Assembly (NCBI GenBank): GCA_030425505.1
Contig: JAUIAB010000005.1
Location: 1-64,000 of the forward strand
Length of the DNA stretch: 64,000 bases
Source of the DNA: Bacteroidia bacterium
GTDB lineage: Bacteria > Bacteroidota > Bacteroidia > Cytophagales > Flammeovirgaceae
Direction of reading: 5' to 3'
Both the position numbers and the translations under genes were made by a program. Below, piece by piece: positions 59,156 through 61,953 of this stretch. Numbering within the stretch: the first letter of the stretch is position 1; the number at the start of each line of letters is the position of its first letter. Below the pieces are notes generated by a model that made no database searches, was not told the DNA's origin, and saw nothing but the letters and a program-made list of their open reading frames with translations.

Positions 59156-61021
59156 TTACTTTTCTATATGTACCATCAAAATAGAAATGTCTGAAGGGTT
59201 TATGCCACTTATTCTCGATGCTTGACCCAATGTAGTAGGCTTCACCTTCAGAAGCTTTTCTCTAGCTTCATTAGATAATGCTGCAATCTTACAGAAATCT
59301 ATTTTCTCTGGTATTTTTTTATTCTCTAATTGATTTAGCTTTTCTGCTAATTTTTCTTCTTTTTCAAGATAGTTATCGTACTTAACTAAAATTTCTGCTT
59401 GCTCTCTGACTTTTTCACCATATTGATTTAATTTTTCTGAAAAATCAGCCTTTATATTTATTAAATCTTCTACAGATATATTTGGTCTCTTTATTATTTG
59501 CTCTGCTTTTATTTTCTGCGTTAGCAAAGCAGATTCTTTAGCAGCCAGAAGTGTATTTATTTCTTCTGGGACTATACTTATAGATTTTAAATACTTTTTC
59601 AGCCCTTCTGTTTCTTTTTGCTTTTTTTGAACATTTTTCAACCTTTCTATATCTGCCAAGCCTAACTTTTCTCCTATTGGTGTTAAGCGAACATCTGCAT
59701 TATCTTGCCGAAGTAATATCCTATATTCTGCCCTGGAAGTGAACATTCTATATGGTTCATCTGTTCCTTTGCTGATTAGATCATCTATCAAAACTCCTAT
59801 ATACGCTTCAGACCTTTTGAGTATCAGAGGCTCTTCTTCCTTAACTCTATTATGCGCATTTATTCCAGCCAATAAACCTTGGCAAGCAGCTTCTTCATAA
59901 CCTGTTGTGCCATTTATTTGCCCTGCAAAGTATAAGTTTTCTACTTTTTTTGTCTCCAATGTCAGTTTTAACTGCATTGGGGGAAAATAATCATACTCTA
60001 TTGCGTAGCCTGGTCGGAACATTTTTGCTTTTTCAAAACCAGGGATTTTTTTCAGAGCCTTTAGCTGAACTTCTTCTGGCAAAGACGTAGAAAAGCCATT
60101 GACATAAATTTCTACTGTATTCCACCCTTCTGGCTCCACAAATATTTGGTGACGGTCTCTTTCCGCAAAACGATCAATTTTATCTTCAATGGATGGACAA
60201 TACCTTGGCCCTATTCCTCTAATTCTACCATTAAACATTGGAGACTGATCAAAACCAGTTTTTAATAAATCATGCACTTCAGGGTTTGTATAGGTAATAA
60301 AACAGCTTTTTTGTTCATCCAGTGGCTTTGTTTCCTCACTAAAAGAGAATTTTTCTGGCTTTTCATCTCCTTTTTGCTCCTGTATAGCTGCATAATCCAA
60401 ACTTCTTCCATCTACACGTGGTGGCGTTCCCGTTTTCATTCTCCCAGACTCAAACCCTAGTGAAACAAGCTGTTCTGTTAATCCTGTAGCTGCTTTTTCT
60501 CCTGTCCTACCTCCTCCAAATTGCTTTTCCCCTATATGAATAATCCCATTGAGAAATGTTCCGTTCGTCAAAACAACTGCTTTGCTTCTAAACTCTATTC
60601 CCAAACCAGTTTTGACTCCAGCTATTCTACCTTTTTCAACTACTATCTCTTTCACCATCTCCTGCCAAAAATCCACATTTTGCGTTTTTTCTAAAGCAAG
60701 CCGCCACTCTCTTGAAAAAAGCATTCGATCATTTTGTGTTCTTGGACTCCACATTGCAGGACCTTTTGATCTATTAAGCATCCTAAATTGTATCATAGAT
60801 TTATCAGAAATAACACCTGATAAACCCCCAAGAGCATCAATTTCTCTAACTATTTGACCTTTAGCTACTCCTCCCATTGCTGGATTACAACTCATTTGTC
60901 CTATTGTTTCCATATTCATGGTAACCAACAAAACCTTTGAGCCCATTTTTGCCGCTGCATGTGCTGCTTCACAGCCTGCATGTCCTGCCCCAACAACTAT
61001 TATATCGTATGTATCTCGCAT
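59156..61021 (-). CDS. mnmG: tRNA uridine-5-carboxymethylaminomethyl modification enzyme MnmG (GidA)
   Basis: 621 residues, full length. The FAD motif [10 protein letters not shown] (11-20), [46 protein letters not shown] and [17 protein letters not shown] are characteristic; the C-terminal helical domain binds MnmE ([17 protein letters not shown]). With MnmE it modifies U34 of several tRNAs. It is in a minus-strand run downstream of ybeY and upstream of the Ig-like lipoprotein gene. A parS-like site lies about 20 bases upstream of its ATG. Confidence 0.96.
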
Positions 61022-61042: not shown

Positions 61043-61058
61043 TGTTCCACGTGGAACA
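61043..61058. promoter_or_regulatory. parS-like centromere site
   Basis: TGTTCCACGTGGAACA is a perfect 16-base palindrome and matches the parS consensus TGTTNCACGTGNAACA bound by ParB. It lies in the ybeY-mnmG gap. It is the only such site seen in the window. Confidence 0.75.
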
Positions 61059-61083: not shown

Positions 61084-61525
61084 TTAATAAGGATTAAATC
61101 CAATTTGTTTAAGTGACTGGTTTTCTTTTTCACGCATAATTCTTTTTTGAGCCTCTTCCCTATCATCAAAACCAACTAAATGTAAAATTCCGTGTATAAT
61201 GACTCGATGCAACTCCTGATCTAATGGGTTTTTATTTGCTAGAGCATTATCATTTACTCTTTCAACACTAATGAAAATATCTGACTCTAAACACTCAGAG
61301 TCATCTTCAGAATTATTAAAAGTTATAATATCAGTGAAGTAATTGTGATTAAGGTATTTCTTGTTAACTTCTAATAAGTAACTATCGTCACAAAAAATGT
61401 AGTTGATTTGATATTGCTGGATTTTATTATCGGATAAGTTTTGAGCTATCCAGACTTTTATTTTGTTTTCCTCCTCTTCTTTTAAAGAGAATTTTTCAGT
61501 TTCATAAAAAAAAAACTTCTTGCAT
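61084..61525 (-). CDS. ybeY: Endoribonuclease YbeY, with a frameshift in a poly-T tract after the start
   Basis: About 146 residues if one base is skipped. From 61505 downward the frame reads YETEKFSLKEEEENKI..., then NYFTDIITFN, SDIFISVERV and the metal site HRVIIHGILHLVGFDDRE near the C-terminus, ending at 61084. This is YbeY, a single-strand RNase for 16S rRNA 3'-end maturation and ribosome quality control. The third ligand is Asp rather than His. That frame has no ATG, GTG or TTG upstream. An ATG at 61525 (MQEVFF) lies in another frame and joins it if the ten-T run (61506-61515) is read as nine. It is five bases downstream of the RsbW-like gene. Confidence 0.85.
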
Positions 61526-61530
61526 TACTA

Positions 61531-61953
61531 CTAAATGTAAAAGGTGATCTCTACTTTATTTCCAGGTTCATAGTATTTAACTTCATCAGCCAAATGCTTC
61601 ATTAAGAAGACTCCCCTTCCTCCTAGTTTATCAATATTCTCTGGAGCAGTTGGATCAGGCAATTCTTCATATTCGAAGCCCTCGCCTTCATCTTCGATAG
61701 TAAATGAAATTTCATGATCCTTGATATCAATACCAATAGTCACGTCTTTCGTTTTATCTTCTTTGTTTCCATGAACTATAGCATTATTAACACACTCTGT
61801 TAATGCTACCAAAATGTTACCATACACATCATCATCAAGATCGTATTTTTCCTTTGTTTGATCTATATAGTTTTCAACTATTCTGCCGTTCTCCATTAAC
61901 GACGGTATTTTTATCGTTATGGATTCTGTAGAAGTTATTTTATCTGCTGACAC
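61531..61953 (-). CDS. RsbW-like anti-sigma factor kinase (HATPase)
   Basis: 140 residues, a single GHKL ATPase domain. The N box is ECVNNAIVHGN (53-63), the G1 box DEGEGF (88-93) and the G2 box GGRGVFLM (111-118). Proteins of this kind are serine kinases in partner-switching systems, phosphorylating an STAS protein and binding a sigma factor. A SpoIIE-type phosphatase, the counter-enzyme, is encoded about 9 kb away, but no STAS gene or sigma factor is in the window. Start is GTG at 61953, overlapping the upstream coiled-coil gene by 14 bases. Confidence 0.9.
   Translation of the reverse strand: MSADKITSTESITIKIPSLMENGRIVENYIDQTKEKYDLDDDVYGNILVALTECVNNAIVHGNKEDKTKDVTIGIDIKDHEISFTIEDEGEGFEYEELPDPTAPENIDKLGGRGVFLMKHLADEVKYYEPGNKVEITFYI

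Follow-up and report, generated by a model that had tools for sequence, protein, structure and literature searches.

Frame break at a T-run close to the ybeY start codon in a family of Cytophagales and its probable rescue by RNA polymerase slippage

How can a bacterium produce YbeY from a reading frame that has no start codon? This question is raised by the ybeY locus of the window, a stretch of 64,000 nucleotides that is part of the genome referred to here as G000 (assembly of 2.95 Mb in 41 contigs). YbeY is a housekeeping enzyme of ribosome maturation and not a surface structure.

The ybeY start region in the window

The ybeY frame (61084..61524, minus strand) is startless and consists of 146 open codons and a TAA stop at 61084-61086. 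It encodes a metallo-endoribonuclease that matches Pfam PF02130 (E 7.8e-28, 97.4 bits vs a cut-off of 25) and NCBIfam TIGR00043, the rRNA maturation RNase YbeY (E 5.1e-31, 107.3 bits vs a cut-off of 45). The metal-binding motif HGxLHLxG is present as HGILHLVGFDD.

Direct reading of the minus strand at the ybeY start gives TAG TAGTA ATGCAAGAAG-T10-ATGAAACTGAAAAATTC. The zero-frame start, ATG CAA GAA GTT TTT TTT TTA TGA (61502..61525, minus strand, with 61525, the end coordinate of the earlier note, as the first base of the ATG), begins just past the stop of an upstream ATPase gene and yields MQEVFFL*, a product of 7 aa that is off the YbeY frame by one. On the 5' side of TAT GAA ACT, the YbeY frame reads TAA TGC AAG AAG TTT TTT TTT; it thus reaches a stop without an ATG, GTG or TTG, and the earliest of these codons in frame is found 97 codons past the T-run. 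This reading bears out what the earlier note had claimed about the locus, namely that the YbeY frame lacks a start of its own and has a stop upstream, and that the ATG at 61525 is out of frame by one base, with the two frames meeting in the T10 run (61506..61515, minus strand; U10 in the mRNA).

Joining the ATG at 61525 to the YbeY frame takes one T less or two T extra. When the length n of the run was varied in silico, 6, 9 or 12 T led to a full YbeY of 145-147 aa, and 7, 8, 10, 11 or 13 T to peptides of only 6-14 aa.

Recurrence of the break in related genera

The earlier note had suggested aligning the locus in relatives, and this comparison contradicts the notion that all of them carry an unbroken frame. 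The family sample comprised G000, which has no genus mate in it, and 17 further genomes of the family that belong to seven other genera. The ybeY gene was seen in 16 of these 18 genomes, G000 included; it was not found in the incomplete assemblies of G009 and G011, which would have contributed congeners. Broken ybeY genes are present in three other genera of the family, their starts being ATGGAAAATATC-T9-GTGAAG in G001, ATGAATAATATA-T9-GTGAGG in G004 and ATGGCAACCCAGAAAGTA-T9-ATGAAA in G007. Each of these has an off-frame ATG, a T9 run that is not preceded by an in-frame ATG, GTG or TTG, and then an intact YbeY frame. The run is located 10-18 nt past the first base of the start codon.

The three T9 genes need one additional nucleotide (n = 10, or 7), and the G000 gene needs -1 or +2. 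With n = 10, the T9 genomes yield I/V-F-F-F-x-E, the spacing of which equals that of the family consensus I-N/T-F-F-x-E-D. For G000, a change of -1 leaves YbeY one residue short of the consensus before FF, and +2 restores the consensus exactly.

In the genera g3, g4, g6 and g7, ybeY is in frame and the run does not exceed 7. A wider survey of ybeY starts covered 79 loci of the GTDB collection, 60 more Cytophagales genomes and the relatives. In about 160 other Bacteroidota ybeY starts, the in-gene T-run is at most 8 and no break at a run was found. Runs of at least 9 thus occur in four genes, each of which is off frame, whereas none of the about 160 genes with shorter runs is broken at its run. 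A few surveyed genes have a TTG, GTG or unclear start (e.g. the GC-rich L255) in which no T-run is involved. As the broken arrangement recurs at an equivalent position in three further genera, it is more than chance.

A family tree was built on MnmG, which is encoded by the downstream gene mnmG (gidA; 59156..61021, minus strand); an rpoB tree was dropped, as rpoB is missing from G000. The lack of an rpoB match, in spite of a rated completeness of 95.7%, is probably due to an assembly gap. In the MnmG tree, G001, G004 and G007 group together as a first clade (100/99), as do g3, g4 and g6 as a second (100/99), with G000 standing separate. Since the members of the first clade have an equal T9 and an equal register, the T9 state has persisted across three genera. 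The state of G000 reflects either a separate origin or a length change since.

Polymerase slippage and competing explanations

It is probable that full-length YbeY is produced from mRNAs on which RNA polymerase has slipped at the T-run. In this process, the polymerase would slip constitutively, giving rise to a mixed pool of ybeY mRNA. In G000, U9 (-1) or U12 (+2) transcripts would be translated from the ATG at 61525 into a YbeY starting with MQEVFF(F)YETEK, so that MQEVFFYETEK or MQEVFFFYETEK would be the N-terminal peptides of the slipped product, and U10 or U11 transcripts would give peptides of 7-14 aa. In the T9 genera, YbeY would be made from U10 (+1) or U7 transcripts. As the unslipped products are merely 7-23 aa long, all YbeY would depend on slippage.

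Poly(T) is the preferred slippage substrate of the E. coli RNA polymerase, with both insertions and deletions occurring from seven T upwards (PMC6260861). At the frame junction of ybeY, a slip-prone run of at least 9 A/T is present as T10 in G000 and as T9 in the three genera, and the same ORF organisation and run are kept among the non-identical relatives of the G001, G004 and G007 clade. A mixed shift direction for one function is regarded as a criterion for transcriptional realignment (PMC3711429), and because the shift directions differ between G000 and the T9 clade, transcriptional slippage is favoured over ribosomal frameshifting.

Further support comes from the depletion of long runs in coding sequences, which has been read as a sign of slippage at the respective length (PMC1088944). 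Expected counts were obtained for 704 kb of G000 coding sequence by shuffling synonymous codons within genes. Coding runs of at least 9 were observed 11 times for T (41 expected) and 26 times for A (96 expected), which corresponds to 37 observed vs about 137 expected A/T runs and a depletion of about 3.7-fold. The ratio of observed to expected T-runs decreases from 1.01 for T7 to 0.69 for T8, 0.40 for T9 and 0.10 for T10; for A-runs it is 1.19 for A7, 0.36 for A9 and 0.20 for A10. Depletion in G001 and G003 is like that in G000. This pattern supports polymerase slippage without proving it, as selection against replication slippage would act likewise.

The dnaX gene, known for programmed frameshifting, offers an internal yardstick for the use of such runs. 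In G000, dnaX (C27:60303-62030; locus L407, 404-2124) is split at an A10 run, and +1 is needed for the long (tau) form; the gene matches TIGR02397 (E 9e-116) and its downstream piece matches the gamma/tau C-terminus. All family members that were examined (G000, G001, G003, G004, G005, G006, G007, G008, G010, G014, G015 and G016) have a short frame that ends just past A10, and so do the genomes G020, G022 and G026 from other families; the other dnaX loci are L415-L418, L420, L421, L424, L426, L428, L431, L432 and L434. The continuation past A10 was read by eye in G001, and in G006 a long continuation after the run was not found. In several other Cytophagales families, dnaX is one unbroken frame. 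A two-ORF dnaX with ten A has already been described (PMC3711429), and dnaX of the G000 family is of this known type and strikingly fixed at ten A. Because dnaX is broken at A10, at least one gene in the family uses a run of ten in the described way, by polymerase or ribosome.

Ribosomal frameshifting on the U-run, with the RNA unchanged, is an unlikely source of YbeY. The zero frame of G001, G004 and G007 does hold U UUU UUU, and a -1 shift on it would enter ybeY and be equally serviceable, but in G000 the same shift leads into another short frame; +1 or -2 would be required there at GUU UUU UUU UUA UGA, a site with no recognised +1 motif. One mechanism should serve all four genomes, and polymerase slippage is the simplest account because it covers both shift directions, whereas a ribosomal -1 shift serves the T9 clade only. 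No upstream stem-loop stands out as a slippage stimulator (z 0.4 to 1.4), nor does a stimulatory structure in the 60 nt spanning the G000 run. Programmed ribosomal frameshifting is marked by one direction, a slippery heptamer and a stimulator; this combination was not found, the directions differing between G000 and the other three.

Similarly low is the probability of phase variation at the DNA level, in which replication slippage alters the run, a subpopulation is in frame and the deposited consensus represents the OFF state. Genes are known to vary in phase at homopolymer runs (PMC2831843, PMC9187656), and two run lengths and registers occur within one family. Against this, all four assemblies would have to have caught the OFF state, and T9 is identical in three genera of one clade. 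The housekeeping role of YbeY, which is not a surface structure, also speaks against phase variation.

Decay of ybeY, or translation from a non-AUG start in frame, is distinctly less probable. AUU directly precedes UUU UUU in G004 and G007 and could serve as such a start, but in G000 only UGC AAG AAG separates the stop from UUU, and G001 offers CUU; an alternative start is therefore not conserved. With respect to decay, 139 YbeY codons are open beyond T10, and H105, G106, H109 and D115 are among the residues that are invariant across nine family members. YbeY identity is 42-53% for broken pairs and 44-54% for broken vs unbroken pairs; as these ranges overlap, there is no excess decay of the broken genes. 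The startless frame is thus probably that of a functional gene.

Long runs elsewhere in the G000 assembly bear on its accuracy. All 36 distinct runs of at least 10 were inspected with their flanks. Most are located between genes or within an unbroken long frame, and two join broken frames, those of ybeY and dnaX; within genes, the frame is preserved at many A/T runs of 9-12. Since most long runs are intact, general misreading of homopolymers by the assembly can be rejected. When 864 kb were scanned for runs of at least 8, no further convincing break came to light: the hits L333, L355, L356, L359, L363 and L386 are weak (short runs, or startless stretches without further evidence), and L355 and L356 were both in frame when read out. 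Homopolymers are error-prone, but a sequencing or assembly error hiding an in-frame run would have had to strike one gene at equivalent codons in each of four separate assemblies, all from different genera. Other G000 runs of 10-12 are in frame, and the remaining ybeY starts, about 160 in number, are free of such breaks. The break can be taken as almost certainly real, and the sequencing error of which the earlier note had warned is very unlikely.

For the preferred reading, polymerase slippage, we infer a transcriptional slip with a substantial yield, the outcome of which would be a constant but lowered share of productive mRNA rather than a regulated switch. The earlier proposal of slippage-dependent expression has become the best-supported one through the break in three genera, but its second part, a possible switch, is not supported, as nothing found shows regulation. 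A steady output from a fraction of the mRNA, or an indel that is simply tolerated, would be a simpler account than a regulated switch. Slippage at ybeY as a selected, condition-sensitive control (e.g. by nucleotide supply or elongation rate), which would determine how much of a 16S rRNA maturation enzyme is made and tie ribosome quality to growth state in the family, is accordingly a rather doubtful extension.

The slippage may be selected as a dose control or merely tolerated. Selection is favoured by the persistence of T9 in three genera together with the exclusive use of TTT. In the three T9 genomes, 63-74% of the Phe codons are TTT, so that nine consecutive TTT have a chance of about 3%, which is a weak codon-usage argument for maintenance of the tract. 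Tolerance is favoured by the near-neutrality of any length under efficient slippage; if slippage fully masks the break, four of four genes being off frame has a chance of about 0.2 and is not rare.

Known systems and gene neighbourhood

Slippage-rescued genes of Blochmannia and Buchnera resemble ybeY in having one homopolymer indel in an otherwise intact housekeeping gene that is kept between species (PMC3017870, PMC4389277). Frameshifted poly-A/T genes in insect endosymbionts have about 30% full-length transcripts (PMC3017870), and ybeY of Blochmannia turneri is itself listed as a frameshifted gene (PMC4389277). However, the endosymbionts have reduced genomes, each of which contains several genes of this kind, whereas the Cytophagales genomes are 3-9.5 Mb in size, strongly avoid long coding runs, and had only ybeY and dnaX found broken. 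Shigella mxiE/spa13, Citrobacter tssM and the two-ORF dnaX with A10 (PMC5009743, PMC4256274, PMC3711429) also have an A/T run of about 9-11 that joins two frames in a conserved organisation. Their unslipped product is a protein, often with a role, in contrast to the peptide of 7-23 aa from ybeY.

In the open-access literature, no report of YbeY slippage or frameshift in Bacteroidota was found. GeneTack detection misses frameshifts less than 50 nt from the start codon (PMC3711429), and the position of the ybeY run within this distance would explain why the gene escaped detection there. If the proposed slippage is true, a ribosome-maturation enzyme would be made wholly via a transcription 'error' that is kept across several genera with ordinary-sized genomes. 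Annotation may wrongly list genes of this kind as absent or call them pseudogenes, and ybeY would provide a clean natural test of whether slippage can be retained as a dose-setting device.

Directly upstream of ybeY, an RsbW-like HATPase_c_2 ATPase of proposed anti-sigma type is encoded (61531..61953, minus strand; PF13581, 2.5e-24, below the NCBIfam RsbW cut-offs). This gene ends in TAG, and the ATG at 61525 follows shortly after. In the broken relatives G001 and G007, ybeY likewise comes after a similar gene end, GGRGIFLIKHLADEV, so genes for stress-type signalling and ribosome maturation may be co-transcribed. Between ybeY and mnmG, a perfect parS-like palindrome, TGTTCCACGTGGAACA, is located at 61043-61058; it is the sole one in the window, with none expected by chance, which suggests a putative ParB site near a replication origin. 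Similar parS-like sites follow ybeY in G001, G003, G013, G014 and G016.
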